From Owenia fusiformis (taxonomy: Eukaryota; Annelida; Polychaeta; Sabellida; Oweniidae): a stretch of DNA of 64,000 nucleotides. A program made the translations under genes and the position numbers. The stretch covers positions 52,159,885-52,223,884 of the forward strand of contig CAIIXF020000001.1 in assembly GCA_903813345.2 (NCBI GenBank), read 5' to 3'. Shown in pieces: positions 3,364 through 33,465 of the stretch (positions are counted from its first letter, which is position 1; each line of letters starts with the position of its first letter). Below the pieces are notes generated by a model. It did not search any database, was not told the DNA's origin, and saw nothing but the letters and a program-made list of their open reading frames with translations.

Positions 3364-4657
3364 AAAATACAACTAGAGTTTAACATTTTTTGAGTGAACA
3401 AAGTACAGTGTTAGTACATGCAGATGAAAGTCATGATATCATCTAATTTTTTCCCTCAATCAGGTGTAACAGTGAATTTACATTTCAAGCAAGTTCCAAT
3501 TTTGGTCTTCTCTGGACTACTTTCGACAACAAATGAACCACATTATTAGGTGTAAGTACTAAGTATGTAAATACTATGTAAATGTTTTAACGTTTTAATT
3601 ATAAACAACACGATGCCCATGTCAAGCAGCGTGCCTACTAGGCACGCAGTTTGAAACTCTGACAAACTGCGCGCATATTTCAAAATGGAAGACGGGGAGG
3701 ACACGACTCCCAAAAAGAGTCAAAGTACGAAAAATACAAGGTTAGTCTCGTTCTAAAGATAGTACCATTCTGTGAAGATGAACTTAATTTACTCATAGTA
3801 CTCAATGTTGTTCCCGATGTAAACCTAGTTATCTCAATATAAGGGTCTTAAGTAACTTCTGTGTTCAAAATTTACAGTGTAAAGTTATATCTATGTCTTT
3901 TTATCGTCATTTGCCGTTTATTCAGCCATTGTGTCTGTGTATGCTAGAATATATAAGATCACTCCATCTGATTAAAGCAGCATAGTTTGTGTTCAAAACG
4001 ATAATACGCCATAAACGTGATTTAAACATTTTTTCTTGTCAAACTGTGCGCCTATATTCACATGTATTTCCCAAACTGCGTGCCTAATATTTCCGAACTG
4101 CTTGCCTATCCAAGCCTGTTTTGTATTATTAGAAAACGTAAGCACCATATGTAAGGCACATATCGTCGCATGAGAATAACTTTGTACTATCTCACATTTT
4201 TACGGAACTGAGAAATCAAGGTTTAAAAGTTTAGAGGTCTGTATCCTTCTTAGTATTGCTATGTGAAACTTGATTTTTTGTATGTCACCTGGTCTCACCC
4301 TAGAGATATCTTATATGAAATATCATACCTTGAAACAATTTACAAGATCCTTTTTTAAAACTATGGAAATGGAGTTGATACAATTTCCCACCGGAATAAC
4401 AGCTTATTTCTAATTTCAAATTGTCATATCTGATATCAACTGTTTCAACCAATCAACTCTCTAAGATTTGGTCATGTGACTTGCAAAACTTGGAGTTACA
4501 GGGTGTCCAAAAAAAAACAGGACCGTAAGAAAGTTGAATAACTCGGTCAATTTTGCATATTCTGCCTTGAAATTGTAGAATTATTAGTTCATTCAATGTG
4601 AATTTTGTTGTGAAAGTTTGATGAGAATCTGTTCATGGTGTCAAAAAGTACAGTACT

Positions 4658-4985
4658 TTACAAAACATGCTCAAAGTGGTCACTTCTCCTCTATATGCAC
4701 AAACGAATAGTGTGAACCAAGTTGTTAATGACCCTAACCTATACACATTGATGTGGATGGTACATATTGGGGGTAGTCATTGCCCTCTTAAGATTGTTAG
4801 GGGCCTGTCAGTATACACACTGGCTTTGAGAAATCCTCAAAGATAAAAATTTGGGGGATTTAGATCTGGCGAATGAGCTGCCCATATGGTTTGCATTCTG
4901 CAACTGATGAGCTGACCACCAAAGCATTGCCTAAACCATTTCAGCATATCATTTGCAGTGTTGGGGTGGCAGTGGCTTGTTGAAA
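4658..4985 (-). pseudogene. Mariner-type transposase C-terminal relic (left arm)
   Basis: Translated on the minus strand, the stretch gives SHCHPNTANDMLKWF, then HSPDLNPPNFYL followed by a stop where Trp is expected, and it ends HFEHVL at a stop codon near 4658. These match the catalytic-domain end (the PDLNPxDFFLWG region) and terminal HFEHVL signature of Tc1/mariner-superfamily transposases. A stop and a frame break make it non-functional. Confidence 0.75.
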
Positions 4986-5129
4986 CCACTGCTTATCTCC
5001 TCAGATGTCCCTTCTGGTGCTTAGTGACCTCCAAAACTTAGTGAGAACTTACTGGCCCTTGTTTATGGTGATAACACGTCCCCAGTCAACCTTCGAACCA
5101 AAAAGTACTGATGATTCCATATTTCCTCA

Positions 5130-5333
5130 TTGCCACCCAGGCAGTGCATTGTTCAGAATGCAATGGATGCTGTAACACTTCATCAGGAGGATGTAAGCCC
5201 CAGTAGCAATTGTTCTTGGAACAAACTTGTCCATTCAGAAAGACATGTGTGGAGGAGGATCATCGACAACTTTTTTCGCCGGATTGAATTGTTCATAGAG
5301 AGGAGAGGTGCACATTTGGGGCATGTTTTGTAA
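5130..5333 (+). pseudogene. Mariner-type transposase C-terminal relic (right arm)
   Basis: The frame ends RRIELFIERRGAHLGHVL and a stop. This corresponds to the usual RIxxCIExxGxHFEHVL terminus of mariner-superfamily transposases. It runs opposite to the left-arm relic, giving the element its palindromic layout. Only about 60 residues remain, with no catalytic residues. Confidence 0.65.
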
Positions 5334-6100
5334 ATAGCTGTAGTGTTTGACTCAATTGATAGATTATTATCTAACTTTCACAACAAAATTCACATTGAAT
5401 GAACTAAATAATTCTGAAATGTCAAGGCAAAATATGCAAAATTGACCGAGTTATTCAACTTTCCTGTTTTTTGGACACCCTATATAACAATCTTATATTA
5501 AAACAAAGTATGCCAATATGCATGTTATTGTATCTAGAATGAAAAATAATGTTTTGCTTTGTAAAAAAATCTTCAAAAACCAAAGAATATTATTTAATAA
5601 AATAAAGAAAATTCAATTTATAAAACTTTAAAATCAATTTCTCAAATAAGTACAATTATTTCTTAATTTTGGAATCTCAGGACACCCTTCAAAAAGAATT
5701 TATTGCCTTTGAAACTAAGGCAGAAGTACAATGCATTGAAACCAATGATGCCAATATGGTCCCCCACATATTTCCCTCGGTATTAACCCTGTAGCCTAAA
5801 CCTCCCAGCACATTCCGGTCCGCTGGTCAATATCAGGTTATTTGTGATACAGACCAGTTGATTTTTTCACTGGGTATAGGAGAATAACTTTGCAACTGGT
5901 CCGTAATTCCATTTTGACCAGCAGGTTTCAGATCCTTAGGGCCTAAGACATAACCAATTTTTATTACATGCACATGGAAGAAATTTGAAAATAGAAAAAT
6001 AATTTCTAATTCATTTTAGATTAATGACATTTGTAGTTTGTGATCGAAACAAACTGCGTGCCTAAGTAGGCGCGCAGCTTGACATGAGCACCGTGAACAA

Positions 6101-7644
6101 GGCATTATAGAAAATAGACTGTTAAATACGTTTACATGTAAATCGTAAAATGTGACATGTCTCAATATATGACCTTTGACGCATTCGGTACCCCGACCAT
6201 TTTTATACTCAGCAGCCCTCTCAAATTCAGAAAATGCCACGATTTTAGGTTTGAAAGTCATAAACTATGGGGAAATCGTATTGACAGTTTGGAATATATT
6301 TGCAAGGTGGGCAATAAAAATGTTACACTTTTTATCATTCTTAGACTTTACAAAAAAAGATTTTACAAACTAAAATTGAATAAATTCTTGAAAAATATGT
6401 CTGCCTCTATCTGTGATAATAGCGCTCAATCTCAGAAACGTCACTACTACAGTACATTATGAATGCTTTCTTTAAAGATTTAGCTACCATAGATGATATT
6501 GTTTCAATATCTGATGCGTTATCAACCTATCATACTTTATATATACTGGCTTATTTTCATAACATTTGGTTCAAATCTGTTCTTTTGAACAGAATATATA
6601 TGTGATTGTCCCATTTTTATTTGCCCATCCTGTACATATATATATACACTATAGTTTATTCTGGAATGATTTTATCCAAAGTTTCCTAAAAACAGGATAA
6701 CTGCAGAAAAAACTGCAATAAAACTCATCCCGGATTAAACCTGTAATTTTAAACAACTCGGATGTTTAAAAAAAATCAAACCGGAATTTCAAAATGTTTA
6801 GGTTGAAAAGTATGACTGTATCACATTAATGGATATACCATGAAGCTCTCTTTTTCTCCAAGTTATCAATATACAATATTCGTATGTAACCTTTTTGTTG
6901 TGGATTATCACAAAATGCTCATTAATCGATTGAAACAGACATCAGAGATATCGAATTTCCGGGGAGACATGATGCAGAATACAATCGCGGTAAGTGTTGC
7001 CGTTCTAATAACAATCCGATCAGTTACAATTAATTTTGGATCATTGACTCTGAGTGATTTAACTATTCAATATCACCCTTCATGTTATTTCTTATAAAAA
7101 AGAAATGACCTTGATAAGATATCCTTTTAAACACAATTTACACTCTGCGTCATATTGTTATAATATGTTTGTAAATATTTTGCCGAATGAAACAAACATA
7201 AAACTCAAATGACTAATACTCCTTCAGAACAAGAATGTATTTTCCAAGAAAATAATTCATTCTTTCAATAGACTAGATGCGAGTGGAAATAATCTTAAAT
7301 TAAAATCAAAATTCAGATGACATATTTGAAATCTACATGTAAAATTACGTCTAGAAGTGCTATTCCAAAAAGTATTCATCAATTAAATTCCTTTGAAAAT
7401 GGGACTTCTTGGTCAGGTAGATTCTCGTGGAAAGACCCAATGTTATAAAATCACAAAAAGTGAAATGTATTTAGTTTTATTGGACAGCTAAGACATTTTG
7501 TATAACTATCAGATACATAAGGGAACTTTCAGCTATATCATCTGCCATAATTATCTGACCCGAATTAGTCACCTGGTGGTGAAACTTGTAACTACGTGTA
7601 CCTACTGGCATCTGTGTTATTGCAGTGTTACGCGGAATATGGCA
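6101..7644. other. No gene recognised
   Basis: AT-rich DNA. The reading frames near 6157-6462 and 6840-7097 show no recognisable domain or splice context. No clear repeat was seen. Confidence 0.4.
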
Positions 7645-8133
7645 TATCGGCTATCCCAAAAATGGGACACCTTTTGACAAGTATTTTCTTGGCAACTGCT
7701 GAATCAAATTCACTGAAAATTTGTACAAAATAGCCCAAGAGTATCGTGTACAAGGTACAAAAATATGAGAAAGATCAATTAAGTGTTATGTGAGTACTAA
7801 GAAATTCAAGATAGCATGTCAAAAGATCCTATACCATAGCAATGCAATGACAACTTCATAGTGTTTGTATCAAAACTGGGAAGTAATTTCTCAGCGATAG
7901 ATGAACCAAATTCTTTAAATCTTTACCTGGGACACTTTATGGTATCTTTCGCTAGTGCTATGAATGTGTAAGAGATTGGTCACATATTGTGTGCATTATT
8001 TTTACTCGATCTTTTTTATATTTCTACAACATGCCAATGATACTCTTAGGCTACTTTGTACAAACCAGTCAATTTGTTCATCAGTTGCCGAGAAAACACT
8101 TGTTCACAAAAGTGTCTCATTTTTGGGACGATA
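7645..8133. mobile_element. Foldback element with TCCCAAAAATGRGACAC ends
   Basis: The left end reads CTATCCCAAAAATGGGACACC and the right end is the complement of CGTCCCAAAAATGAGACAC. The similarity continues inward for about 100 bp, through GACAAGTATTTTCTTGGCAA and GTACAAAATAGCC on the left and their complements on the right. A related fragment starts near 46733 (TTGTCCCAGAAAAAGTGAACC). No transposase was recognised. Confidence 0.65.
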
Positions 8134-9778
8134 TATTCATGGCTGCGCGGTACTTGTGATACGGATGAATATGCCATACTCATATTTATGACATATCTCG
8201 CAGGTGAGTATGGCATATACCGCAGTGTATGCGATACATTGATTTCAGTGAATACCCGACCTTTTATTATTAGATGCCAGATCAAACATTTCAAAGGCAC
8301 CGACTTGTATTGGGCATCACTGCAATTGGAAACTCTGATCAATTTACACGTCAGTCGAGATATCGGTGCCGACAACTGTAATCAAGTCCTAACAAATGGC
8401 GTTTTTTCGCAAAGACGACTGAGGTGTCAGTTTGGAAATCGTAAGCTTACTGAATTATTTTTTTACTTGTTTGTGCTTAAACAGAATTGTCAGAGCTGAC
8501 AGGGTCTATCAATAATACACAGGCTTAAACTATTTTTGAATGTTGTTGATTGTTATGGCACTATTTATTTGTAGCGAGGTTTAGCCTCTCTTCTATCTTA
8601 TCACAAAAACACGAAAACGAGTTTGAATCAAAATTTCATTTATTTGTGAAAATAAGCGAAAATAAGTTACTCACAGTTTTTGTGTAAATCCAGAAGACGC
8701 ATACATCACAAGAACTGTGTACCTTCAGGGTTACCTTCTTCTAAGGCCACTATATCGTGGCCTTCGTCCAAAGATAAATCCTCCAAGTTTTTTACTGCTG
8801 TATACGGGTCATTTAGTAATCATAAAATTTGAAATCAAATGTTCACCATTTTTCCACATCATAATTTGAATTGCGAGTTTTGGTCTTATTACCACACCAA
8901 TAATTACTCAGCCTGAATTACTTCTAGCCAAGAATTGGCTAGACTCGAGTAACTTCAGGGTATTTCGATTTTCTAGTTTCGAGCTTGTGCCCTCGGGTAC
9001 AAACGACTTCCAAAAAGCATTGTCAACTTTATGAAAATGTTCACGAAAGATGTAAATAGGTTGTTACTTTGCTAATTGAGGTTCAAACGCATATCGTAGC
9101 AGAGTATAGCAAACATAATATCGTGTTCATCGAAGCTAGAGCAACCAGTCTCTCAAATGATGTCAGACAGACAAAGGTAGGCGTAGCTCTATACCTTTTT
9201 TTTTATCAAAATCCACGTGGAATGTCTTCCATCACTTAACTTGAAATAAAAACTGCCTGCTAATCGTTTATTTCGGATAACTTGGAGAGTGTGAAAAGAA
9301 ACATGATAATTTTAGATTAGAAAATGCATGTAAATATATAATATTGCCTACACTGAAGAAAGACGATCGCATGGTGATAGGGACTATGGGTTCTACGACC
9401 GGGCGTTCTATCCTCATTTCATGGAAACGATCAATTTCTATTCCATTATCTATGTATTAATCAATGGATTTGAAATTAATAATTCTCAATGCAATGGCTG
9501 GAATATTGTTGACGTAAAATAACCGCAAAACGGTTCCGAAAAAGGTGTCTATGTCTGAGAAAGCTAACCCCTTTACCACTACTTTCTAATGGGGACATGC
9601 AAAGCCCCGGATGTCGTTTCGCTTCGTTTGGTACACATACTAAGGCCCGGGTATTAAATAAGCCCTTGGGTGAGCCTGTGTCCAATGGAATCGCACACTT
9701 ACATGACCATCACCTCTATAAATCCTTTATCACTCTAGGCCTCCCAAGATTGGACAGGCGTTTTTCAGATCCTTTTTA
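8134..9778. other. No gene recognised; one small inverted repeat
   Basis: A 147-codon frame (8056-8499) overlaps the foldback arm and has no recognisable motif. A 13-nt inverted repeat, TATGCCATACTCA, lies at about 8169-8181 and 8203-8215. The rest is unstructured AT-rich DNA. Confidence 0.4.
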
Positions 9779-11238
9779 TGTCCCCACCACATAGTGTGGG
9801 GACATATTGTCGTCCTAGGCCCGTCCGTCCGTCTGTCTGTCTGTCCGTCTGTCTGTCCGTCCGTACGTCCGGCAGTTTTCTCCAAAACCGCTACAGGTAT
9901 CACCTTCAAATTTTCAGGAATAACTTGTGAGTGCATACAGATGTGGATGAAAAAAAATTAACTCGATAGCTACTTCCTGTCGGCCATTTTGAGGTCAATT
10001 GCTAAAATCCTTGTCTGCAAACTTTAAGAAAAACGGCTTCACAGTTGCTTTTAACTTTAACATCTTGTTCAGCTCACTTCATTTTACATCTGATTAGGTT
10101 TTGGACCTGTTAGCTCAGTCATGTCAGCCATTTTGAATGTCTGAAGAAAAGTGAGCGCGCGATAATACTTTGTATCATATTGAATGGTGTTTTTGAGTTT
10201 TCATACTTTAACTATTTAGTAGCTTTATAAATAATTTCAGGTGTACTTTGGTGAAAAAGCCTATGTTATTGTTAACAGTAGTTATATGTGATAATTTTTT
10301 AAAAGGAAATCAGCAAAAACTCATAATCACTTTTTTATTGTCGGCCATTTTGGTTTTTTCCGTCCTAAAATCTTGTCTGTAAAGTCTTGTCTACACGTTT
10401 TCAGGTGAACCGTTTGGTAGATCAATTTCAAATTTTCAGGGATGATTCTTAGTATGAAAATCTAGATCTGATTAGTTTTTTTGGCGTTCTGGGTAAATGT
10501 CAAGGCACCCATTTTGGATTTTCCGTCCTAAAATCTTGTCTGTAAAGTCTTGTCTACGCATTTCCAGGTGAACCGTTTGGTAGATCAATTTCAAATTTTC
10601 AGGGATGATTCTTAGTATGAAATTCTAGATCTGATTAGTTTTTTTGGCGTTCTGGGTAAATGTCAAGGCAGCCATTTTGGATTTTCCGTCCTAAAATCTT
10701 GTCTGTAAAGTCTTGTCTACACATTTCCAGGTGAACCGTTTGTTAGATCAATTTCAAATATTCAGGGATGATTCTTAGTATGAAAACCTAGATCTGATTA
10801 GTTTTTTGGCATTCTGGGTAAATGTCAAGGCAGCCATTTTGGATTTTCTGTCCTAAAATCTTGTCTGTAAAGTCTTGTCTACGCGTTTTCAGGTGAACCG
10901 TTTGGTAGATCAATTTCAACTTTTCAGGGGTGATTCTTAGTATGAAAATCTAGAACTGATTAGTTTTTTGACATTCTGGGTAAATGTCAAGGCAGCCATT
11001 TTGGATTTTCCATCCTCAAATCTTGTCTGTAAAGTCTTGTTTAACTGTTTCACGGATCAATTTCAAATTTTCAGGGGTGTTTCTTAGTATGAAAATCTAG
11101 AACAAGCTAATTTTGGGGGATTCTGGGTAAATTTTAAGGCGGCCATTTTGGATTTTCCGTCCTCAAATTGTGTCAGTAAAGTCTTGTCTACTCATTTTCA
11201 GGATAACCATTTGATGGGATCACCCACTGGTGGGGACA
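9779..11238. mobile_element. TGTCCCCACCA-ended element with internal array
   Basis: The ends are TGTCCCCACCA at 9779-9789 and its exact complement at 11228-11238. Just inside the left end, TGTCCCCA and TGGGGACA form a short hairpin. A GTCC/GTCT microsatellite follows at 9822-9870, then degenerate and finally regular units of about 163 bp containing GCCATTTTGGATTTTCCGTCC. There is no coding capacity. The general architecture resembles non-autonomous DNA elements carrying internal satellites. A target duplication could not be assigned. Confidence 0.65.
10340..11215. repeat. Tandem array, about 163-bp unit, about five copies
   Basis: CAGGTGAACCGTTTGGTAG starts at 10401, 10565, 10728 (one mismatch) and 10890, giving periods of 164, 163 and 162 bp. 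The last unit, near 11047-11215, is shortened and diverged. Older units can be traced left to about 9960. Confidence 0.9.
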
Positions 11239-11682
11239 TTTTGTACACATTTGTGTTCTTGTTTATTTTTTATTTGTTGTTCATTTCAACTCACTATTGA
11301 ACATGTGACTTTGATGTCACGTGTCTTACAATGCTATTGACTAAATTATATGGGTGTGGTTTCTTTATAAAATTTGAATGAAGAGAATGAAAATACGATT
11401 TTGTCTCGATATTAATTTTCCCATACATTTGAAAATTAATTGAAACATTAAAATGATGTTGGGAAAAAACGAGATTTGTTAAAATACTGAGTTTTTGTCA
11501 ATAATAAATGTGCGGTCATTTGTGACATTTCTCTACTTATATTATAATTTGTTATTTTTAAATAGAAATTGCTAATAAATCCATGGCCAGCACCTTTTTA
11601 AAAATAGATCACAAAAAGATAAACATTTTCAGAAGAGCCATCTAGAAACTGGGTGGAAATCTGCCAGATGTCACGTGTGTAA
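11239..11682. other. No feature recognised
   Basis: AT-rich spacer with no gene, RNA or repeat that I can support. Confidence 0.4.
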
Positions 11683-11790
11683 AAGGATTTAAGCACCAGT
11701 TTTGTGCTTTGTTTATGTGACATATTATAAGTTTGTTGAAATCATGAACCTCTATGAACACACAAAGCATCGATGTTCAATGCTTAACTC
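11683..11790. mobile_element. Small foldback MITE (GGATTTAAGCAC family), copy 1
   Basis: The left end GGATTTAAGCAC with TGCTTTGTTTAT faces a right end of ACAAAGCAT and CAATGCTTAA. The same ends and inner motif occur at 20826-20965. The element is about 110 bp and non-coding. Confidence 0.5.
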
Positions 11791-12167
11791 TAATTATACA
11801 CGGCTTAGTGTGAACGTAAATCACAGTGATTCACTGAAGATAATGTCCCGCTTGGCACTCGTCTTCCGTACATCTTTCGGCGGTTCTCTGTTTTGGGCCA
11901 CTCTGTAATGAATAATATCACTGTCGACAAGGGATGAATTCCCCTACGTGATTATTAATGCTGATTATTCTGTACTTAGTACATTTGCGTCATGGCATTA
12001 CGACTTCTCATTTCTCAAAATAGAATAGATCTTTAAAGTAGCCTACATGTAAGCGTGTTGTTTGCTTTTGAACGTTTTATTGACCGAAATAGTAGATCGA
12101 TCTTTTTCTTGGAAGGTTTTGGGATTTTCTTCTAGAGAAGATAAAAATACAATACTATTATATTTAC
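11791..12167. other. No feature recognised
   Basis: AT-rich spacer between a MITE and the 12-kb foldback. Nothing supportable was seen. Confidence 0.35.
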
Positions 12168-14100
12168 AAAGGAGGAGGGAAGTTAGCGCAACAGATTTTG
12201 GACAGTCATATGATTTTGGCCATTTCCTGGGGATTTAAACAGGTGCATATGTTAGGCGAATACATTACCTCCAGGAAAATCACTTCTAGAGATGATAAAA
12301 TAATTTCGACTTTGAGACAGGGTAGATGCAAACAACCCACCCATATGTTTTTTCTGAAATTTTTTCCTGATTTTCAACCCCTTCCATCCTTGCTTTTTAA
12401 TTGTTCTTGCATCATTATGTTGCGTTTTGACACACAGTTAATCCCTTAAATGGAATAAATGATTCCTTTTAGATATAGTGGAAAACAATATTTCCCATGT
12501 TATTTTCAGCTTTCAACTAAGTTTGGTCACCCATAATCACGATGCCCATGTCAAGCAGCGTGCCTAATAGGCACGCAGTTTGAAACTCTGACAAACTACG
12601 CGCATATTTCAAAATGTGAGACGGGGAGGACACGACTCCCAAAAAGAGCCAAAATACGAAAAATACAAGGTAAGTCTCGTTCTAAAGATAGTACCATTCT
12701 GTGAAGATGAACTTAATTTACTCATAGTACTCAATGTTTTTCCCGATGTAAACCTAGTTATCTCAATATAAGGGTCTTAAGTAACTTCTGTGTTCAAAAT
12801 TTACAGTGTAAAGTTATATCTATGTCTTTTTATCGTCATTTGCCGTTTATTCAGCCATTGTGTCTGTGTATGCTAGAATATATAGGATCACTCCATCTGA
12901 TTAAATCAGCAAAGTTTGTGTTCAAAACGATAATACGCCATAAACGTGATTTAAACAAACTGCGCGCCTATATTCACATGTATTTCCCAAACTGCTTGCC
13001 TATCCAAGCTTGTTTTGTATCATTAGAAAACATAAGCGCCATATACAAGGCTCATATGTGTCTAATAGTAGAACCCCATAATTGAAACACTATGAGAGTC
13101 CATCCACCAAGATGGTGATCTGAAAATAAAAGTTTTTTTTGTTCCCAACTTAATTGTCACGTCTATTATACATTTTGACTTTCAATATGAAAATCTCATA
13201 AAATCTGACAATAAAGCAAAAATTCCAAAGCTACATGAAAAACACCTACACTTGCCTCTGTAGAAATTCCAATGATAATATGTAGTTTTAATAGTGTATG
13301 CGCACAGTTTGTAATTTCTGGCTAAAATAGGCACGCAGTTTGTGATTTATATCTTTTTAATCTCCTGATTATCTGTTTTATCTCGAAATATTTTGAATTA
13401 TACATGATAAATGTGTAAGGAATTAAATATAAAACGAGTCTAAAGTATTTGTCATTTATGTTTAAAGTGCTAGATCGATTTACGTATAAATTCCCGTTAA
13501 ATCAGTGACGAAAATGCCATTAATCTGCTTATGTTTTAAAACTTAGATTCATTTGCACATAGTTTTTGCTAGTATTTGCAAGATTCGTATATTCGCCACA
13601 GAATGAACGCGTTGAACAAGAAAACAATGCAGGATAAATGTCTTTAAATTACGTTTCAAAATACAGACTCCAACTTAAATGATGCAATGTTCTTAGGCAC
13701 GCAGTTTGTGATCGAAACAAACTGCGCGCCTAAGTAGGCGCGCAGCTTGACATGGGCACCGTGATAATGGGTATCTTTAAAACCCTTGAATGAATCACTT
13801 ATTCCTTTAAAGGGCTTAACTGTGTGTCAAAACGCAACATATTGATGCAAGAAAAATTAAAAAAGCAGGAACGGAAGGGGTCGAAAATTAGGAAAACATT
13901 TCAGAAAAACATGTGGGTGGGTTGTTTTCATCTACCCTGTTTCAAAGTCGAAATTATTTTATCGTCTCTGGAAGTGATTTTCCTAAAGGTAATGCATTGG
14001 CCTAACATATGCAATTGTTTAAATCCTCAGAAAATGGCCAAAATCCAACATATGACTGTCCAAAATATGTTGATTTCCCTCCTCCTTTCAAATTTCTCTA
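12168..14100. repeat. Foldback with about 310-bp arms, split by copy B
   Basis: The left arm (about 12168-12478) is the diverged reverse complement of the right arm (about 13786-14100). Shared blocks include AAAGGAGGAGGGAA, TTTTGGACAGTCATATG, GGGTAGATG and GCGTTTTGACACACAGTTAA. Frames at 12198-12449 and 13824-14261 lie in the arms and look incidental. Copy B lies in the loop; without it the loop would be only about 100 nt. Confidence 0.8.
12538..13763. mobile_element. CACGRTG-ended DNA transposon, copy B
   Basis: The left end CACGATGCCCATGTCAAGC and the right-end complement CACGGTGCCCATGTCAAGC are flanked by the 5-bp duplication ATAAT (12533-12537 and 13764-13768). The 1226-bp element has about nine AAACTGCGYGCCTA-like motifs on both strands, at both termini and internally (about 12957, 12989, 13328, 13694, 13718). 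Its 5' part matches copy A and its 3' part matches copy C. No credible transposase frame was found, so it is best read as a non-autonomous derivative. Confidence 0.9.
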
Positions 14101-14739
14101 AATGGACAGTCACATGTTACACATATTTGGGATTAGTTATCAGGTGCAAAATACACGTACTATCAAACTTATCAAACAACAATTTTGATATTTTGAACGT
14201 AATCCCACGTCACACCGTAACATTACGCCAATGCACCCTTTCCAATGAACATGGGTTCTAATTGTGCACACAAAAGATAATACTCTTTTACTTATCCTAG
14301 TTTTGCATGTTAGTTATATTCTTTTTGAAATTAGAGGCAACCAAGAATTTCAGAAAAGCCTACGTTTCCTTCGATTAGGGTAAAACTTCGGGTGACTGTC
14401 AACCCTTTCTCTTCAAATCCGCCAAAAGATATACTATTATATTTTCAAAATTTTGGAAACGATTGCAGAGTTGAATCTCCAGCAAAAACAGGCCTATGAC
14501 TCTCTCGCTTATTAAAAAAAGGTAAAAGCAAACAAAAATGTGAACGTTTCTGACCCACTCTGTAGTAATGTAACTAGTAATTCTTTTAATTTGGAGATTC
14601 CTTATTACAATATACGAAAATGAACGAACCGACATAGATAACTTCGAAGGACGTGATACAAAGAATAAATAACTTACTGTGATTAAATGTTTCATAGACT
14701 TTCGAAACATTTTAGAACACAAGATATTTACATGAAAAT
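14101..14739. other. No feature recognised
   Basis: AT-rich DNA. The minus-strand frame at 14399-14722 shows no recognisable domain. Confidence 0.35.
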
Positions 14740-17198: not shown

Positions 17199-17200
17199 TA

Positions 17201-18639: not shown

Positions 18640-18690
18640 TTTCAATTCAGTTCAATTTATTTATTTCATAATTCTTACATAATATACACT
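18640..18690 (-). repeat. Possible LINE 3' tail
   Basis: TTCAGTTCAATTTATTTATTTCAT reads on minus as an ATAAATAAATTGAACTGAA-type tail. A similar phrase, GTTCAGTTTATTTAT, occurs near 53337-53351. Only the tail-like motif supports this call. Confidence 0.3.
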
Positions 18691-20825: not shown

Positions 20826-20965
20826 AGGATTTAAGCACTGAATTCAATGCTTTGTTTATAAAATATATCACAAACCAAGACCGAAGCTAGAAGTTAAAGA
20901 GGGAACAATCCACAAGTGATATATTATACAAACAAAGCATTGAATTAATCAAGTGCTTAAATTCT
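20826..20965. mobile_element. Small foldback MITE (GGATTTAAGCAC family), copy 2
   Basis: GGATTTAAGCACTGAATTCA with ATGCTTTGTTTATAAAATAT on the left faces the complementary ATATTATACAAACAAAGCAT and AAGTGCTTAAATTC on the right. The arms are about 50 bp around a 40-nt loop. It shares ends with 11683-11790. Confidence 0.7.
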
Positions 20966-22107: not shown

Positions 22108-22170
22108 CTACATGTCAGTCATACACCACATTAGGCTACATGTTAGTCATACACGAATGGAACCTTGACC
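22108..22170. repeat. Satellite fragment left of the LINE
   Basis: GTCAGTCATACACCA and GTTAGTCATACACGAATGGAA belong to the same 60-bp satellite that resumes at 24157. This shows the array existed before the LINE inserted. The last 15 bases are the 5' target duplication. Confidence 0.8.
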
Positions 22171-22225
22171 TTCGAATATAGTCAATTCTTTTCTATCCAG
22201 AACTTTCCATGCTTTACTCCCTAGT

Positions 22226-23123
22226 TTGAAGTGCAATTTTTCAGATCACATAGCTACAACTGAGGGTGAAAAAGCTGGGTGTTTCCTTAACTTTTTTTCT
22301 TCAAAATATCATAATTTAAACCAAGTGCATAACGATGCACATTTCCAAATAGAACTGGAATATCAATTGACCATTTATCTACCAATCCAGATGAAATTCT
22401 TCAAATAATCCAGTCCTTTGATCGCGATAAAGCCTGTGGTCTTGACAAAATTAATAACAGAATGACAAAAATAGCCCAGGAAGCATTATCCTTCCAGTTA
22501 TCAAAATTGTTTAACATGATTTTTGCATGTGGCCAATTTCCTAGTTGCTGGAAACTTGGAAACATTTCTCCAATTTATAAGAAGTCTGATAGATCTCAAG
22601 TTGAGAATTATAGACCGATTACTTTGCTAAGCACTTTTTCCAAAATTTTTGAAAAAGTTGTGCATAATCGCATTTTAACGCATCTACTGGAAAATAACCT
22701 TCTTTATCAATTTCAATCTGGATTTCTTCCAGGACACAACACTGAGCTACAACTTTTAGCAATAACTGACTATATCTTTAACGAAATGGAAAAAGGTAAC
22801 TGTGTTAATTCTGTTTATTTAGACGTGGCGTCTGCTTTTGATACTGTACCGCATAACTTACTCATTCACAAGATGAAATCATATTGAATTCAAGGTAAAT
22901 TAACCGACCTCTGCTCTTCTTACTTAGAAAATCGAAAAGTTTGTGTCACTGTAGATGATCACCCATCAAACATTTCTCCTGACCACTTCATAAACTCCGG
23001 TGTGCCTCGGGGGTCCATAATCGGACCCCTGATGTTTCTGATATACATAAATGACCTCCCTGACACTCTGACCTCGAAAACTTTTATCTATGCAGATGAT
23101 ATAAGATATATCTTGAAATAATG
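22226..23123 (+). pseudogene. LINE reverse transcriptase relic
   Basis: The first frame (to about 22370) gives EKAGCFLNFFSSKYH. After a frameshift the second gives FDRDKACGLDKINNRM, ENYRPITLLSTFSKIFEKV, QSGFLPGHNTELQLL and VYLDVASAFDTVPHNLL, the standard RT blocks up to the first catalytic Asp. A TGA at 22885-22887 interrupts it. The same frame continues with SGVPRGSIIGPLMFLIYIND and the catalytic YADD box near 23090. The stop lies where these proteins usually have Gly, consistent with a point mutation. Confidence 0.88.
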
Positions 23124-23999
23124 TATAATTCATATTTGGCGTCTCATTTTGACTATTGTAGCTCCATTTACGGATCGTCATCCTTGGCGGCCTTGTCAAA
23201 GCTTGATAAAATCCACTACCAAGCTGCTGTTATATGTGTTATGTGTGGGGTTCTGCATGGCTCTAACACCTTAAAAACGTTAAAATGTTTACAGTGGAAA
23301 TCGCTTACTGACAAAAGACACGAAAAAAATCTAAGACTGATGTTCAAAATTGTAAGAAAGGAAGTGCCTTATTATGTCCATAGTCTTTTTGACCAACATC
23401 GAAACCAAGCAACTAGAATTTTAAGACACTCTTTACCCTTTTCCTGCCCAAGAAATATTACAATGAGACTCTCCAAAGCACCAGTTTTAAAACTTATAAA
23501 TGACTAAGCCAGACTTTTCGTGAAATTCAAACCATTTCTAGATTCAAAAGCTCTATTAAACAGATAGTTATTCCTATTTCAAACTTCATACCAACTACAA
23601 AACTAAATTTAAGTAGAACCAACGAAAAACTGCTAAATAGGCTTCGAGTTGATTTTGCCCTTAAAGACCATTTCTTTACTCATAATTTTACTGGAATAAT
23701 TGACAACAAATGCCTATGTGGCTCTACTGAAGACACAAAGCATTTCATTCTAACCTGCCCTCGCCATACCCATGAACGTAATAAAATGATGACTGCACTT
23801 CGTGAACATAATTTATTGTTTGATACTCAACTTATTTCTAGTAAGACAGAACAGGTCAAATACTTAATTTATGAAAATGAACTCACTATTGATTCTCAGA
23901 AAATCCTGATAGATATAGTGATGCAATTTGTACAGGCCTGTTATAAGTTTCCATCAAATCAATGTTATTCTCATTTGTATTTTGTGACAACCCCCCCCC
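23121..23999 (+). pseudogene. LINE C-terminal region with CCHC knuckle
   Basis: The frame 23121-23507 gives ASHFDYCSSIYGSSSLAALS and KRHEKNLRLMFKIVRKEVPYY, typical of the region after the RT thumb. It joins YADD almost directly, so roughly a hundred residues normally between them are missing. A second frame then gives KCLCGSTEDTKHFILTCPRH, a C-x-C...H-x4-C knuckle. A poly-C run near 23992 ends the coding region. Confidence 0.8.
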
Positions 24000-24156
24000 C
24001 CCTCCCTCCCAACCTCTCACATTACCAATAAACCATCTATGATTACTGTAATTAATCCTCTATTGTAATTTAAACTACCTAGAATGCCTATGGTGATTGG
24101 TATTAGATATTTTGTGTATTTTTTGATTATGAAGGAAATAAATAATATGCTAAAAA

Positions 24157-25490
24157 AATGGAACCTTGACCAGCGCATTTGACTACTCCATAAAAAGCTT
24201 TATATTAGTCAAACACCGATGGGACCTTGACCAGCGCATTTGACTACTCCCTCAAAGCTATACGTATGTTAGTCGTACTCAAATGGAACGTTGACCCACG
24301 GACCAGCACATTTGACCATTCCATGAAATCTATATGTTAGTCATACACAAATGCAATGGAACCCTGACCAGCGCATTTGACTAGCTACTCCATAAAAGCT
24401 ATATGTTAGTCATACACCCATGGAACACTGACCAGCGCACTTGACTGCTCCATAAAAGCTATTTTGTCAGCCATTCACCAATGGAACCTTGACCAGCGCA
24501 TTTGACTACTCTATGAAAATTAATTGTTATTAGTCATACACCAATGGGACCCTGACCAGCGCATTTGACGACTCCATTAAACATATATGTTAGTCATATA
24601 CCAATGGAACCTTGACCAGCGCATTTGACTTCTCCATAAAAGTTAGATGTTAGTCATACACCAATGGGACATTGACCAACGCCTTTGACTACTCCATTAA
24701 ACATATATGTTAGCCATATATCAATAGGACCTTGACCAGCGCATTTGACTACTCCATAAAAATTATGTTTTAGTCATACACAAATGGGACATTGACCAAC
24801 GCCTTTGACTACTCCATTAAACATATATGTTAGCCATATATCAATAGGACCTTGACCAGCGCATTTGACTACTCCATAAAAATTATGTTTTAGTCATACA
24901 CAAATGGGACATTGACCAACGCCTTTGACTACTCCATTAAACATATATGTTAGCCATATATCAATAGGACCTTGACCAGCGCATTTGACTACTCCATAAA
25001 AATTATGTTTTAGTCATACACAAATGGGACATTGACCAACGCCTTTGACTACTCCAATAAACATATATGTTAGTCATACACCAATGGAACCTTAACCAGC
25101 GCATTTGACTTCTCTATTAAACCTATACGTTAGTCATATACCAATTGGACCTTGACTGGCACATTTGACTAATCTATCAAAGTTAAATATTAGTCATACA
25201 CCAATGGGACCTTGACCATCACACTTGTCTTCTCCGTAAAATGCCCATGGTAAAAGCAATGTTTCAGTCTATCACCAATGGAATGTTGACCAGCGCCTTT
25301 AACTGACTGCTACGTGAAAGCTTCATAGCCATACACTATTAGGACCTTGACCAGCGAATTAGACTACTCCATGAAAGCTACATCATGTAAGTCATACACC
25401 AATGGAACGTTGACGAGCGCCTTTAACTACTCCTTGGAAGTTACCTGTTCGTCATGCAGCATTGGAACGTTGACGAGCGCCTTTGTTAAT
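24157..25490. repeat. 60-bp satellite array with 120-bp higher-order dimer
   Basis: About 22 units carry GGGACCTTGACCAGCGCATTTGACTACTCC with TTAGTCATACACCA. At 24661-25060 two unit types alternate (GGGACATTGACCAACGCC and AGGACCTTGACCAGCGC), and the 120-bp dimer repeats with essentially no change at 24661, 24781 and 24901. Units at the edges are more diverged. It contains no gene. Confidence 0.95.
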
Positions 25491-26607
25491 ATTCAGCATT
25501 TTTCCACTTTGAGGCTTATCAAAGTACACCACGAGGCTAATGACTCAAAATCAGCAATTGCATTTTGTTTTAAAAGGAGATTACACACGTACAATATATA
25601 ACAAAGTTGCTTATGCCTTTTAAATATGAAGAAATATCATACATAAACAAGCATGTATATATGCCGAAATGTTCAATTATGGTCGATTGTATAATATAAA
25701 TGAAACACCAAATGGACATGCTCACTAGTAATCGATGTTCAACAGCGGAGAAACAAATCTTCATATTAACAAGCCAGTGGAGCGGCCAGTACAAATAACA
25801 TTCTACTTTACAACTAGCAGACTTAACATGTCACAAAGCAATAGATCACATCTGGATATTAGATATAACTAGGTAGAACCCACCGTATGCAATTCAAAGG
25901 TGATCTCATAAAGGAAATGATCATATACTATTTTGCGCACCGAAAACCCCTCTTTCCTCTGACACGTCGCAAAAAGGTCGCGTACGTGTGTTTTTAGGGT
26001 TTCGCATAAATGTAACTTTCATTCTTTGTAATAAGATAATATTCAAATTAAAGTAATATATCATTTTGAAACTGCTTTTTTGAAGTTTTGAAAAAGGTAC
26101 ACTCATTTCACAATTTCTGCTCGTTTTTACCCAAAAATAAAATATCCGCTGTGGACACGTTACATTTTGAATATTTTCATCTTTAAACGCTCATAACTCG
26201 AACAATATTTGACTATAATAATTTTTTTCGTCTTGATGAAAGTAGATGGAAGTTTTTTTTCAAACTCTAGTTTATTAATAAATAGTTGATTTTTTGCAAA
26301 CTTAAAATAGGCCTATAGAACAAAAGAATTTTCATTTGTGCACATTTGCCCCCCAAAATCTCACATTCTGTCGTGTTAAAGAGCGAATATGTATAATATG
26401 GACTTCATACGAATCTTAAAATAGTCTTAAAAACTCTCATTACCTGCACAAATGTGTTAAAAGGGGTAAGGGAGCAGCAGGTCGGTGGCACATTCAAACG
26501 TATTTTTAAATGCTATCAACGTGACACGATCATAACAAATTTGAAAAAACTCGAGCTAGACAAATGTTGACAGAGTGTAATTCCATGGTTGACCTGGGAT
26601 GTTGAAA
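25491..26607. other. No feature recognised
   Basis: AT-rich DNA after the satellite. Frames near 25570-25794 lack domains. Confidence 0.35.
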
Positions 26608-27278
26608 GGAGTTGACACAGATCTTTGCATTGACATTCAAATGAAAACGGGATTCGGAAAACAATTTGTGTTAATTGTATTTAAAATGTTTTTATTCTGC
26701 CTTGATTAGTGTCACTGTCTATTCTTCCGTTCACCTGTATTAATCACGTCTAAGTTAATGGTCGCTTGTGTATGCGGTAAATTGTTATAGGGGCTAATAA
26801 TACAGCGAGAGAAAAAAGTCAGACAGAAACTCATCAGTAGTAAGAATAACCGGAATCTGGGGACACATTCATGGTATGAAATATAGTTGTTCAAAGGCAA
26901 CTCGTAAACCCAATCCCATTCTACTTTAAAGTGTCTTTTATTACAGACAACTTTGGGTTTTAAGACCGAGTCACATTGCAAACATTTTTTCCAGATACCA
27001 ACGTTCCATGAAAGCCTGCAAAGACTACAATGTGTAATTTTGAATATATTTATACCATCGAACGAAGTTCGTGGGGGGGGCATAGAGAACGATTCCGCCC
27101 GAACGTTCGTACGTCTGCTCGGGCAGTAGAGAGGTTTCACAATACGTATTTCGCCGAACGTCTAAAATCCGTAACACTAATCAAGGCAGAATAAAAACAT
27201 TTTAAATACAATTAACACAAATTGTTTTCCGAATCCCGTTTTCATTTGAATGTCAATGCAAAGATCTGTGTCAACTCC
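26608..27278. repeat. Perfect 105-bp inverted repeat with 461-bp centre
   Basis: 26608-26712 and 27174-27278 are exact reverse complements starting GGAGTTGACACAGATC. No target duplication is visible outside. The centre holds a 142-codon minus-strand frame (26712-27140) that starts with GTG and has no recognised domain. It is either a very young TIR element or a recent inverted duplication. Confidence 0.9.
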
Positions 27279-27289
27279 ATATCCTAAAT

Positions 27290-27556
27290 CCATTTTCTGC
27301 TTTTAAAACATAACAATATTGCAGTTTCATATGTTTACCTAAAATACTGTATATTGACACTAAAATGGCGGCCAATTTCAAACCGGTGGCCATTTCGAAA
27401 ATCAAATTTCGAGCAGAACTCGTACTTATTCTGCATGTAAAACATAGCAATATTGCAGTTTCATATATTGTTCCTAAAATACTGTATATTGACACTAAAA
27501 TAGCGGCCATTTTGAAACCGGTGACAATTTTGAAAGTCGACTTTCGAGCAGGGGCC
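27290..27556. repeat. Two-copy tandem duplication, about 135 bp
   Basis: AACAATATTGCAGTTTCATAT and AAAATACTGTATATTGACAC recur 135-138 bp apart, each followed by GCGGCCA-TTT and CGAGCAG. A similar GCGGCCATTTTGA/AGCTTTTGA pair with 134-bp spacing occurs at 34598-34780. Confidence 0.8.
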
Positions 27557-28539
27557 ATGCATTTGTACGATCCCTAATCCGATCCTGATAAATTTCGCCA
27601 TGGTAATGATGCATTGTTGGATTAATCTTGGAATTTATCCTGACTTTGGTGAAATGGGCATCCTTTGGATAAATTTATCATAATCTTAATCCACCTTAGA
27701 CGACAGGGGAGGAAATGATCAAAGCAAATGTGTAAAAACAACATTTTCCAACCGACCAATTATATGGGTACATTGACTACGAAAAAGATCGAGCACTGTT
27801 CGAAAATCTTTTAACGTTATTAGAAAAAATGTCTAGTAGTTAAATGTCTTCCTAAACGAATACACACAAAATCGAACATGAAACCCTTAATGTATTCCTT
27901 AGATTATTTTATTTATTTTTAAAACCTACATCAAATCTACAGCATTGTCCTTGTTTCAAATCGGTTAAATAGTTACACCGTACATCTAAAGTGTACGACG
28001 GTATATTTTGTCACTGTACGTTATCGATGGTTAGGCATGTTATAGCCAAAACGTATCCACAACTGCATGTAATTGAACTGTTGAATGATCTAGATATATG
28101 TGAAGGAGCGATTTTGGTATGTTATGTTTTATATGTGAATTAGAAGCATGTTACACTTTCTTATTACAATTTGACTTGTGAGTGGCCATTTTAAAAAATG
28201 GCAGCCATTGTATGTGTGTTATTTTACGTTGTTGCTCAACAGGAAAAGTAGTGGATCGATTTTATTGAACTTCTATGTGTGAATACTTCGAAGCATATTA
28301 TTCCGTCTAGTGATCATTTGGCTAATAGGCAACCATTTTCGAAGGACAGCCAGGGCTGTTCGATGGAATTTGCAACGCTTTGCCGTTGCTGTTATCTAGT
28401 TTCATCCTACACAATGATGGGGCGCAATTTTGAGTTCTTGGAATGAGAAAAAAACACCGTGTCAAGTAAAACAATTGCGATGTGAAGTGATATATTGCAT
28501 TAATTCCTGTGATCCCTCTCCCAATAAAATAACAAAACA
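27557..28539. other. Spacer with a dispersed repeat at 27690-28040
   Basis: 27690-28040 matches 37570-37930 in the same orientation. Shared blocks are CAGGGGAGRAAATNATCAAAG, AAAACAACATTTTCCAACCGA, GATCTTTTAACGT and GGTATATTTTGTCAC. The remainder is unrecognised. Confidence 0.65.
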
Positions 28540-28660
28540 AGGCGTGTGCGGTTGGTTAGATGGCAGAAGCTTGTCTGTTAGACTGGTCATCGCCGGGAGG
28601 GGTGTGAGTGTGGACACCGCGATTCCCGGGGTTACGATGGTCAGTCTAAGACGCTGCGTT
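28540..28660. repeat. GC-rich SINE-like fragment
   Basis: GTTGGTTAGATGGCAGAAGC and GACACCGCGATTCCCGGGG weakly resemble Pol III A and B boxes. AGACTG-GTCATCG and CGATGGTCAGTCT form an imperfect hairpin. It is compositionally unlike its AT-rich surroundings. The SINE interpretation is weak. Confidence 0.25.
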
Positions 28661-28709
28661 TTTACAAAACCCATTTACGCAACTCGACAGCCTCCGCCAC
28701 CGATTTATT

Positions 28710-29030
28710 GAATGCACCAGTGTTTTAGGCAGGCATATGAAGTTTGTAACATGCACCAGTGTTTCAGGCAGGCATGTGAAATTTGTAACATGCACCAGTG
28801 TTTCAGGCAGGCATGGTGAGTTTGTAACATGCACCAGTGTTTCAGGCAGGCATGTGAAATTTGTAACATGCACCAGTGTTTCAGGCAGGCATGGTAAGTT
28901 TGTAACATGCCCCGGTGTTTCTGGCAGGCATGTGAAGTTTGTAACATGCACGTCGAGTGTTTCAGGCAGGCATGCAAAGTTTTGTAACATGCACCAGTGT
29001 TTCACAGTTTCAGGCAGGCATGTGGAGACA
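28710..29030. repeat. 39-bp minisatellite, about eight copies
   Basis: GCACCAGTGTTTCAGGCAGG recurs at 28714, 28753, 28792, 28831, 28870 and 28909 with an exact 39-bp period, then near 28948 and 28987 with small insertions. Because 39 is a multiple of three, both strands keep open frames with a 13-residue repeat; these frames are a by-product and not evidence of a gene. Confidence 0.95.
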
Positions 29031-29989
29031 ACAAGAAGGCACCTTTTTGGGACAGGCCTATATTGACATGAATTCGTGCGCCCTTTCAAGGCAAGCATGA
29101 ATTATATGATCTGAAATAAAAAAAAGAAATAAGGGGTGATGGTGGGTGGGGAAAAAGTTGTAATACAGTAAAAAACGTATGAATGATGGTATTGTAAGAA
29201 TAATGAAAACGAGTATGTTGACTGTTGACTGACTGAATACAAGATGCTCGAATGTATAGTTACTGAAGTGTGTGGAGCGAGAAGAGATACGCAAGAGGCG
29301 TAACGTATTGGTCGAGTGATCAATTCCATTAACCTGGTTTTAATTCAAAAACACAATATTATTTTATCTGTGGCTAATTTGATGGTCACCTTTGTGTCCA
29401 ATATCATTTCAAGTTTTTTTCTGGATCGATCGGAGAAATTCAAGTGTCCAAATTTATATTGACAACATAACATTAAGTAAGACTGCTAGCTAGATATTTA
29501 CAAGGTTATTCTTAGTTTTTTCTATTCTATAATTTTTTTATTATGAGACTTTTTAAGAAATCTTAAAATTCGTTTGAAGGTCATAGTCTTTACTCTTTAC
29601 AATTTCGCTTGCATCAAAAAATTCAATGGTGTATGCTGTATAATGTCTGTTACATTCCGAAATTAGTTTATACCAAATTATAATCTTAAGCTTAAATTGT
29701 CAACATAGTTGTAAGGATTTGATTTCGGAGTATGCTCAGTAATATTATTATTCGTTCTTGGGGATTGGCCAAATATGTCATGTGTATGAAATATAAATAT
29801 ATCATACTATTGGAAAAGTGTGTAGGTCACTTGCGGATCCAGGGGGAGGGGTGGGCCCAGACAGGAATTTTTGGCCAACTTATCAAAATGGGCCTAACAT
29901 TTTCAAAACTTGAGCCCAATGTTTGGATTTAGGGGCTTAAAATATTTTAAGGTTTTATCGAGGCAGTTCCCAATTGAATGGGATTCTAG
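29031..29989. other. No gene recognised
   Basis: AT-rich DNA. GCGGATCCAGGGGGAGGGG at about 29835 resembles a worn transposon end but has no partner that I can find. Confidence 0.35.
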
Positions 29990-30170
29990 AGCTTGGCAAT
30001 GACAATAGTTTATCCCAATTTATTGTTAAACGATGATGTGGATGCTGAACTAGCTTTTGTAGATAATGGGCTCACGTTATAAAGTTAAGTAGATTGGTGT
30101 AGCCACTTTGAGAAATAAACCTATTCCCAATTACACTCTGAAATTTCCCTAATCCCCAAAGTTTTCTTTG
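29990..30170. repeat. Dispersed repeat, inverted partner at 40545-40745
   Basis: TATCCCAATTTATTG, GTGGATGCTGAACTAGCTTTTGTA, TTAAGTAGATTGGTGTAG and TTCCCAATTACACT match, in order, the reverse complement of 40545-40745 with scattered differences. No coding sequence was seen. Confidence 0.7.
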
Positions 30171-30535
30171 TCGACTTATTGCTGTTATTAATCTTGATTG
30201 ATGTTTTTCTCCTACTATAACAAAGTGTGTCAATCTAATTACATAGGTAATCAAGCCTGGCTCTAGGGTACACCTAGGATAAAGAAATAAATGATTTTTC
30301 ATCCGAGGGTACACCAATTCCTCGTTAGGTATACTTAACTCTAGTATGAGTGTGGGTATGTTATTTGTAGCAATGAGTTCAGACAATTGTGCCGCTGTAG
30401 AAAAATATTTAGAAAATACGAGCTAAGTGCCGAAAATGCTTTGTAAGACGTTTTGAAAAGAGTAATTTTTTGTTAACTCATCAGAGTTTACGTAAGACTT
30501 TTCCCCAAGCCGTCTTGGAATGCGTTGCTCAATAT
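30171..30535. other. No feature recognised
   Basis: AT-rich spacer. The minus-strand frame 30072-30386 has no domain. Confidence 0.3.
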
Positions 30536-31633
30536 CAGTGGCCAGTATCAAGATGCGGTAAAAACCGTTACCTTCTCATCTAAGATGGCGGACGGAAAGT
30601 GTCGATTTCGATATTTTTGGTTTTCGTCGAGTTAAACTTATTTAATTTATAATTGACTTAATGCTTAGATATTTGAACTTGATAAGCCTTACATACAAGT
30701 ATAATAGAAACTTTGGAGTATGACCATTTGTTCGTAAATCATACGTGGACGCCATAAGTCAACTATATGTTACACCGCTAGAAACCCGGGGTGAAGCTAT
30801 TAATTAAGCTGTCACAGCTCAGCCAATCAGTGCTATTGTGGTCAGTTTAAATGTCCAGCATATACAGAACCACATGGTCTGCTACAACCTTATGTTATGT
30901 TTGTTTACTTTTAGACAGATAAGAGATGCTCATTGGCTGAAATTGAAAGTTTCAGTTATGCTAATGAGCATATTTACAAAAATGAATTGTCTAATTTCAC
31001 AAAAACTAAACAACATTTTAGGAATTTGATTTGAAATTTATAGTCATTATAGATTCATGAACCACTGTAACAAAAATGAGCTTGTAGCGCATCATAATTA
31101 TCTTGCTAAAGCAGAAAATTTGAAAAATTTCTCATTTTGTTTGAACTGGACATTTAAACTGCCATATTTGGCTGTTGTGGGCTGTTCCATCTGCCTTTTA
31201 TACCCGATTTTGGTCTTTAAGGGAAGGTAACTGGAAGTGCATGATACGATAACTGACACGTCTGTTTTCAAGATGATGCGGTTACTGTATGAAGTTAATA
31301 ATATAGATCTTTTTGTTTCAGACCAAAATGATGCACTTCACTATATAATGTGCAGTTTTTGTACATTACGGTTGGCTATGCAATAGACGTCCCAGATAGC
31401 AACGTTTCTTATCAGAAACGGGAGCTAAATGTCGGGACAGGTGTCGATGTCGATTAATTAATTGAAATTGGGAATCGAGATAATGTGAGCCCCACGTGTT
31501 ATAAATCAGGTTTTAGAACAAATTGTCGTACCCCAAGGTTTCCATGATATATAATGCTTATCAAGTTCTTGATATCAAAGCATTACGTCAATTTTAGTAG
31601 TTTAATTCCACGAAAACCAAAAATATAGATATT

Positions 31634-33465
31634 ACACGTCGAACGAAACCACGGTGCCCATGTCAAGCTGCGCGCCTACTTAGGCGCGCAGTTTGTTTCG
31701 ATCACAAACTGCGTGCCTAAGAACATTGGATCATTTAAGTTGGAGTCTGTATTTTGAAACGTTATTTAAAGACATTTATCCTGCATTGTTTTCTTGTTCA
31801 ATGCGTTCATTCTGTGGCGAATATACGAATCTTGCTAATACTAGCAAAAACTGTGTGCAAATGAATCTTAGTTTTAAAACATAAGCAGATTAATGGCATT
31901 CCGTCACTGATTTAATGGGAATTTATACGTAAATCGATCTAGCACTTTAAACATAAATGACAAATACTTTAGACTCGTTTTATATTTAATTCCTTACACA
32001 TTTATCATGTTTAATTCAAAATATTTCGAAATAAAACAGATAATCAGGAGATTAAAAAAAATAAACCACAAACTGCGCGCCTATTTTAGCCAGAAATTAC
32101 AATCTGTGCGCATACACTATTAAAACTACATATTATCATTGGAATTTCTACAGAGGTACGTGTAGGTGTTTTCGATGTAGCTTTGGAAATTTTGCTTTAT
32201 CGTTAGATTTTATGAGATTTTCATATTAAAAGTCAAAATGTATAATAGAAGTGACAATTAAGTTGGGAACGAAAAAACATTTATTTTCAGATCACCATCT
32301 TGGTGGATGGACTCTCATAGTGTTTCAATTATTGGGTTCTACTATTAGACACATATGTGCCTTGTATGGCGCTTATGTTTTCTAATAATACAAAACAAGC
32401 TTGGATAGGCAAGCAGTTTTGAAATATTAGGCACGCTCTTTTTGGGAGTCGTGTCCTCCCCGTCTCACATTTTGAAATATGCGCGCAGTTTGTCAGAGTT
32501 TCAAACTGCGTGCCTAGTAGGCACGCTGCTTGACATGAGCATCGTGGAAACTGGGGACAATTAGCGTAACATTATGGCGTCAAAAACCAAGACAAAACAA
32601 TGAGCAGCATAGGGCGCAAACAGCCTTACAACGTCAAAAACGACAAGCATCACATTTTTGTAAAGATTAGTCAACCTAAAAATAAAATACTTTATTCTTA
32701 TCTAATCATGACAAAATTCACAGGGTAGCAAGATCTCGAAGACAATATTTCTAAAATGTTTTTGAATTTTGAAGAAACGGTCAAAAAGAAATCAAAAAGA
32801 AGAAGTCAAAAAGAAATCACCTTGGAGCGTTGGAAAAAATTGATATTTATGGAATTTGTGGTAAAAAATCGATGCGTCACATTTTTTCAAGTCTAGAAAA
32901 CCATCTCTCATTTTAATATTATTTGCAAAATAAACAAACTGATTATTGTTTTGTAAATTTAGCCATGACAATATTGTGCAGTTTATTTCAAATCAGACTT
33001 AAATTAGAAGGTTAAATGAAGGTAAACTTATTGCTCGTCCTATTCGCCTTCAAAACCTTACACAATTTTGAAAATCTTAAAAGCGTTCATATACGATAAT
33101 TTGAGATCGAGTCGTTAAGCAATTGTGACGTCATAAATGGACATGTTCCATTGAATAAATTGTGAAATTTTAGTGGGATTTTGATCATTATTTCAAAAGT
33201 TATTCCAATTTCAACGAGTCCTGTAAGCGTTTAGTGTTACGTCTTACAGCGTTTTTGACGATGTCGGGATATATTTAACTTTAAAAAAATGTTGGATCCC
33301 ATCAACATTTTGAAGGAAAAATATTTTCACTGAAATGCGAATAAAAATTCTTCAAAATGATAAATAAAACACATTGTTAGCTTTTTAAATAAGGCAGAGA
33401 TTAACGCTCAAAGCTGAGATATCGATTAGCCCGTGTTTCCCGAATTGTCCCCAGGTCCGTGCACG
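31634..33465. mobile_element. CTGGGGACAATT TIR element, copy 1 (hosts copy C)
   Basis: It starts ACACGTCGAACGAAACTGGGG (interrupted by copy C after GAAAC) and ends AATTGTCCCCAGGTCCGTGCACG, giving an inverted terminus around CTGGGGACAATT. It matches 44904-45359 at both ends but has a longer centre. It is hAT-like by analogy with the 8-bp duplication of the other copy. Confidence 0.75.
31650..32546. mobile_element. CACGRTG-ended DNA transposon, copy C (inverted relative to A and B)
   Basis: It starts CACGGTGCCCATGTCAAGC and ends with the complement of CACGATGCTCATGTCAAGC, flanked by the 5-bp duplication GAAAC (31645-31649 and 32547-32551). The uninterrupted site is preserved at 44904-44925, where a single GAAAC (44915-44919) joins the same flanks. 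The 897-bp element shares most of its length with copy B in reverse orientation. A frame at 31693-31884 is not conserved as protein. Confidence 0.95.

Follow-up and report, generated by a model that had tools for sequence, protein, structure and literature searches.

Transposons of the hAT superfamily usually begin with CAG or TAG, and those of the Transib group end in the heptamer CACWATG. Transib belongs with EnSpm, Mirage and Chapaev to the 'CMCT' clade, whose members mostly carry 5'-CA..TG-3' ends and make target duplications of 2–5 bp, EnSpm/CACTA elements having CAC..GTG termini and a 3-bp duplication (PMC12730594). Within the clade, 5 bp is the Transib value: in Drosophila, 5-bp duplications flank hopper at 532 of 533 sites and transib2 at 7 of 7, and Drosophila Transib elements prefer the GC-rich palindrome CCANTGG (PMC3276498). 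RAG-like (RAGL) transposons of protostomes also start with CAC and duplicate 5 bp, with the end consensus CACTWMCAAACKTYKBB (PMC7204232), and RAG1 has been placed in one clade with DUF1280 (PMC3985635), which the same source equates with Chapaev. A hAT group with 5-bp duplications (hAT5) is on record through a title in the reference list of PMC12730594, and subterminal repeats modify the activity of hAT transposases (PMC4763223). Here we describe a family of DNA transposons with CACGRTG ends and 5-bp duplications from the annelid Owenia fusiformis, three copies of which lie in a 64,000-nucleotide stretch of contig CAIIXF020000001.1 (positions 52,159,885 to 52,223,884; hereafter the window), and which the original prediction had read as related to Transib and RAG.

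The three window copies share the 19-bp termini CACGRTGCYCATGTCAAGC, and each is flanked by its own, different 5-bp duplication; the positions and duplicated letters first given for them agree exactly with the window. Copy 2 (12538–13763, plus strand) is by sequence alignment a near-complete non-autonomous element of 1226 bp, diverging from the family consensus by 1.5% over the aligned positions and flanked by ATAAT at 12533–12537 and 13764–13768; it carries one internal 14-bp motif, AAACTGCGCGCCTA, at 12957–12970 on the plus strand and a second at 13328–13341 on the minus strand. Copy 3 (31650–32546) aligns in the opposite orientation, on the minus strand, as an 897-bp internal-deletion derivative between GAAAC at 31645–31649 and 32547–32551. 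A paralogue of its site at 44899–45150 (plus strand; 96% identity over 253 aligned bases, 21 to the left of the junction and the rest to the right) runs uninterrupted through the copy 3 insertion point with a single GAAAC, which indicates that the duplication arose at insertion. Copy 1 (3609–6095, plus strand), between AACAA at 3604–3608 and 6096–6100, has its ends where they had been placed, but it is no long intact copy: element positions 1–554 (3609–4163) and the last 61 bp, positions 1200–1260 (6035–6095), enclose foreign DNA, most of the right half having been lost to another high-copy repeat from outside the family (about 4155–6027, plus strand). This repeat is interrupted at about 4499–5482 by a further nested element, likewise outside the family, with the inverted ends AGGGTGTCC/GGACACCCT, and both of its pieces match contiguous DNA in loci L023–L028 (L-numbers denote loci fetched from the genome).

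With up to three mismatches allowed, the pattern CACGRTGCCCATGTCAAGC matches the window six times, once at either end of each copy, as compared to no match in 100 shuffles. The heptamer CACGRTG alone is weaker evidence: it occurs 14 times against 7.4 expected, about twice chance (none of 100 shuffles reaches 14), and eight of these lie elsewhere than at the ends of the three copies. As to its surroundings, copy 2 lies between inverted-repeat arms at 12195–12468 and 13789–14068, 84–89% alike, and looks as if it had inserted mid-way into another palindromic element.

In the genome as a whole (498 Mb in 525 contigs), a 29-bp end pattern gave 391 exact matches and its reversed control none, the total of ends thus being at least 391. 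Among the first 100 ends listed, 76 make 38 facing pairs, 31 of which span 1100–1300 bp, and 24 are unpaired. The consensus is 1260 bp long, and 13 aligned near-complete copies diverge from it by 1.4–5.2%. Left and right end form an imperfect inverted repeat, with 81% identity across 70 bp. The 14-bp motif AAACTGCGYGCCTA recurs 11 times in the consensus when up to three changes are allowed, six times no farther than 70 bp from an end; in 200 mononucleotide shuffles the mean was 0.24 and the maximum 3. To our knowledge, such an 11-copy array is not a feature of Transib elements. The consensus can be read for at most 121 codons without a stop (86 when counted from an ATG), which bears out the earlier statement that the copies contain no transposase; Pfam gave no match for the 118-amino-acid counterpart of this frame in L004 and none over the cut-off for a 100-amino-acid frame on the other strand of L005. 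With its many copies, inverted repeats, individual duplications and no transposase, the family has the features of a non-autonomous terminal-inverted-repeat DNA transposon, similar to a miniature inverted-repeat transposable element (MITE), and the window copies are real and fairly young members of it. Nine copies were chosen for having an intact ATG and lacking the ordinary right half, and several of them are older, with pieces of up to about 540 bp that are 85–92% identical to the consensus; since these older copies keep the same layout, transposition of elements built in this way appears to go back some time. In one old copy (L081, C7:8630750–8633600), an 800-bp insert is followed by two occurrences of element positions 243–345, spaced about 645 bp from each other. 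The family appears to be new, its kind – the non-autonomous DNA transposon – already known; we found no description of it in the literature, a search that did not extend to Repbase and is weak evidence of novelty, nor CACGGTG in the papers retrieved by one literature search.

Tabulated over 35 complete copies, as had been proposed at the outset, the target duplication is 5 bp in 33, where the chance of a 5-bp duplication is 0.0015 per copy; inconsistent duplications did not occur. The sample comprises the three window copies, 18 in loci L004–L020 (16 with 5 bp) and 14 further copies (14 of 14 with 5 bp), these last being from the 15 of 20 probed copies that keep the right end, with the fifteenth left out. 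The duplications are AT-rich (22% GC as compared to 35% in the window), and C before and G after them are enriched (25 of 64 symmetrised, p about 4e-5, 32 of the 33 rows used), yielding as insertion site the weak palindrome C|AWWWT|G, which differs from the CCANTGG of Drosophila Transib elements.

The original prediction had further looked to longer copies for autonomous relatives. Copies that are long or otherwise unusual either carry nested inserts or depart from the element into DNA where no transposase was recognised; no autonomous copy was recognised among the copies examined, and the frames of candidate loci matched no transposase in Pfam or NCBIfam. The long copies L005, L006, L007, L008b, L009 and copy 1 were set aside, their inserts being mutually unrelated (E 1e-3) and their longest frame 151 amino acids. 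We likewise rejected L004, whose frame reads by eye like that of a long-terminal-repeat retrotransposon and lies between two identical 96-amino-acid frames, and L058, which has a reverse-transcriptase-like frame (again by eye) within the element. In L057, L059 and L060 the match to the element breaks off after 348, 718 and 252 bp, respectively, and the 5–9 kb fetched contain no right end; these are likely truncated copies. Where the consensus reads ATG TGA, 33 genome copies have ATGGAAGACGGGGAGGACACG, many of them followed by the splice-donor-like AAG|GTTAGT; that the intact ATG and this site belong to a first coding exon is a guess. We examined 30 of the 33 (C9:14967710, C12:29744748 and C102:108416 were left out), 16 through a 401-bp probe only and the others through longer pieces (window, L005, L057–L059, L081–L089). 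Each of the 16 held ordinary-element sequence and, nested inserts aside, no transposase was recognised in any of the 30, so that these copies, too, were rejected as autonomous.

The family is thus very probably a non-autonomous cut-and-paste DNA transposon family, in effect a large MITE, with its transposase supplied in trans, likely by a mobiliser of the CMCT clade. If the family was moved in trans, as presumably it was, a transposase made elsewhere would bind the imperfect inverted repeats of about 70 bp, probably by way of the repeated 14-bp motif, a putative binding site; it would cut at the CACGRTG ends and join them to the target with a 5-bp stagger, which would leave 5-bp duplications at AT-rich sites. 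Three points weigh against this account. The class of the enzyme is deduced only from the ends and the duplication length, because no autonomous copy was found; two of the 35 copies depart from 5 bp (a 6-bp duplication fits L010, and L015 has none); and none of 59 RAG1-like or Chapaev places and none of 134 hAT places lies within 25 kb of 150 family ends, a comparison that neither links nor excludes a class because it covers 150 of at least 391 ends.

To look for a Transib transposase, we used peptide queries that find PDB chain 6pqn with E values of 1.5e-6, 7e-16 and 4e-25; the PDB names this chain a DNA-mediated transposase, and we take it to be HzTransib. Concatenated, the queries gave no genome match at E up to 10 – evidence rather than proof, as the six-frame search is blind to introns and, like the two domain searches that follow, had no positive-control genome. 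The RAG1 model PF12940 has no match in the genome over its cut-off and three weak ones below it, and the RAG2-PHD model has a single match, below the cut-off; nor was there a RAG1L or RAG2L in the fetched loci screened. The three weak PF12940 matches are a RAG1-like DDE protein of 726–729 amino acids, one copy being shorter, in an element of about 5.35 kb (L001, 2868–5057, minus strand; L002, 1149–3329, plus strand; both below the PF12940 cut-off), and against PDB RAG1 the protein scores E 0.0016. We rejected it as the partner: its element ends in CATATCGAGATTTT, unlike the family, and neither of its two copies shows an evident target duplication. Upstream in this element lies a frame that, judged by eye, resembles a chromodomain (KGYLVKWKGFSLWDSTWEPLNS). 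Distant relatives of the protein, 26–39% identical, occur elsewhere in the genome, and those in L116–L121 were dismissed as partners, the family ends being absent within the stretches fetched. When a profile built from RAG1-like and Chapaev proteins was run against the six-frame translation, in pieces of at least 25 amino acids, of the window and the fetched loci (12 known-gene loci excluded), only L036 passed the inclusion threshold, a locus originally fetched as a RAG1-like relative. A variant-end pattern has 9 places in the genome, none near a transposase place as judged by their coordinates, compared in part by eye. Separately, a profile of eight genome proteins (two RAG1-like, six Chapaev) finds PDB RAG1 with E of about 1e-6, the region of the final E contributing 24 bits and the second D/CxxC region aligning weakly (about 4 bits), in agreement with the published RAG1 and DUF1280 clade (PMC3985635).

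Chapaev itself is well represented, with 44 DUF1280 places, several having intact frames of 656–688 amino acids in at least two copies. Several young Chapaev families with zf-AD, DUF1280 and intact frames are found in L029–L035 and L090–L112. In the four families whose ends we set (L029, L031, L034 and L096/L098 were left out), the termini are CACAG or CACAC, and all 8 copies examined have 4-bp duplications. The duplication of L033 also fits 4 bp (AGCC), while L032 (59–4583, ends CACAGTACTG) is flanked by GGGGG, a run of G that fits 4 or 5 bp. The family end is absent from the 13 upstream flanks fetched for the 44 DUF1280 places; even when up to 4 changes in 17 bases are allowed, just two matches appear there, both in L092 and neither starting CACG. 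On these grounds the DUF1280 proteins were rejected as partners. Furthermore, since Chapaev elements in this genome share the CAC start and make 4-bp duplications, that start is not diagnostic of Transib or RAG.

Which enzyme moves the family can be narrowed by its ends, duplications and targets. They point to a mobiliser within the CMCT clade, with Chapaev itself unlikely; a Transib-like enzyme or an undescribed 5-bp lineage is the most likely source there, and a hAT5 enzyme is possible. EnSpm/CACTA elements differ in their 3-bp duplication. Foremost, if still tentatively, we consider an undescribed CMCT lineage that makes 5-bp duplications at AT-rich sites and has a transposase missed by present models: CAC..GTG ends, 5-bp duplications and an AT-rich, palindrome-like target would fit it, neither Transib nor RAG1L was detected in the genome, and among the proteins of the genome is an unfamiliar RAG1-like one of the DDE type, with relatives; yet no such transposase stands beside the family ends, and the one RAG1-like element has other termini and no evident duplication. 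The more specific proposal of a CAC-ended, 5-bp lineage of the EnSpm/Mirage/Chapaev/Transib/RAG clade that recognises arrays of the 14-bp motif and prefers AT-rich targets is somewhat more doubtful, and a mobiliser of some other kind slightly more so again. That the family is a true Transib member, its transposase lost, missing from the assembly or diverged beyond recognition, is also unlikely, by a shade more. The 5-bp duplication in 33 of 35 copies, matching hopper and transib2, speaks for it, as do ends that, as first noted, are one base off the reference heptamers (CACGATG against CACWATG, CACGGTG against the RAG heptamer CACAGTG). The fourth base of the family is G throughout, so that measured against CACWATG the first form is off at position 4 and the second at positions 4 and 5, and the resemblance is weak because, given a CAC start, 30 of the 256 possible following tetramers fall within one base of a reference heptamer; the AT-rich targets and the empty search with queries validated on 6pqn tell further against membership. 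Thus, of the Transib/RAG reading, the duplication length and the near-match of the ends are supported, and membership is not.

A hAT element of the 5-bp group is a live rival, since hAT transposases are abundant (at least 138 genome matches to the hAT dimerisation domain) and such a group is on record, at least by title; the repeated subterminal motifs also recall hAT elements generally. We nevertheless rank it just below Transib in probability: no hAT protein is linked to the 150 ends compared, and the family starts with CACG as opposed to the CAG or TAG usual for hAT. A non-autonomous RAGL or ProtoRAG transposon is very improbable, even though the CAC start and 5-bp duplication are those of protostome RAGL elements, as the genome has no RAG1 or RAG2-PHD match over the cut-off and the family ends mismatch the protostome consensus at most of positions 4–17 (by eye, CCC instead of AAA at positions 8–10); with no such enzyme found in the genome, kinship to RAG-ancestor transposons is unproven. 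The least probable of all is membership of Chapaev. This superfamily offers CAC-starting termini in four families, inverted repeats, intact frames in the same genome and, in L032, a flank readable as a 5-bp duplication, but its ends are otherwise unrelated to those of the family, and the 4-bp duplications of its four families argue against it as mobiliser.

Elsewhere in the window, two 1026-bp copies of another sequence, 92% alike, lie in opposite orientation at 2265–3290 and 58521–59546, and tandem arrays occupy 24410–25369 (60-bp period), 28673–28984 (39 bp) and 10314–11278 (about 162 bp).

For the genome of O. fusiformis, the family is of use in annotation, and the comparison with Chapaev within this genome cautions that a CAC heptamer alone is unsuitable for assigning elements to Transib or RAG. 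Should the autonomous partner prove Transib-like, a recently active, CAC-ended 5-bp system in a genome with no detectable Transib or RAGL would become a data point on the origin of V(D)J recombination; if the mobiliser instead belongs to an undescribed lineage, it would represent a further branch beside the ancestry of the RAG recombinase.

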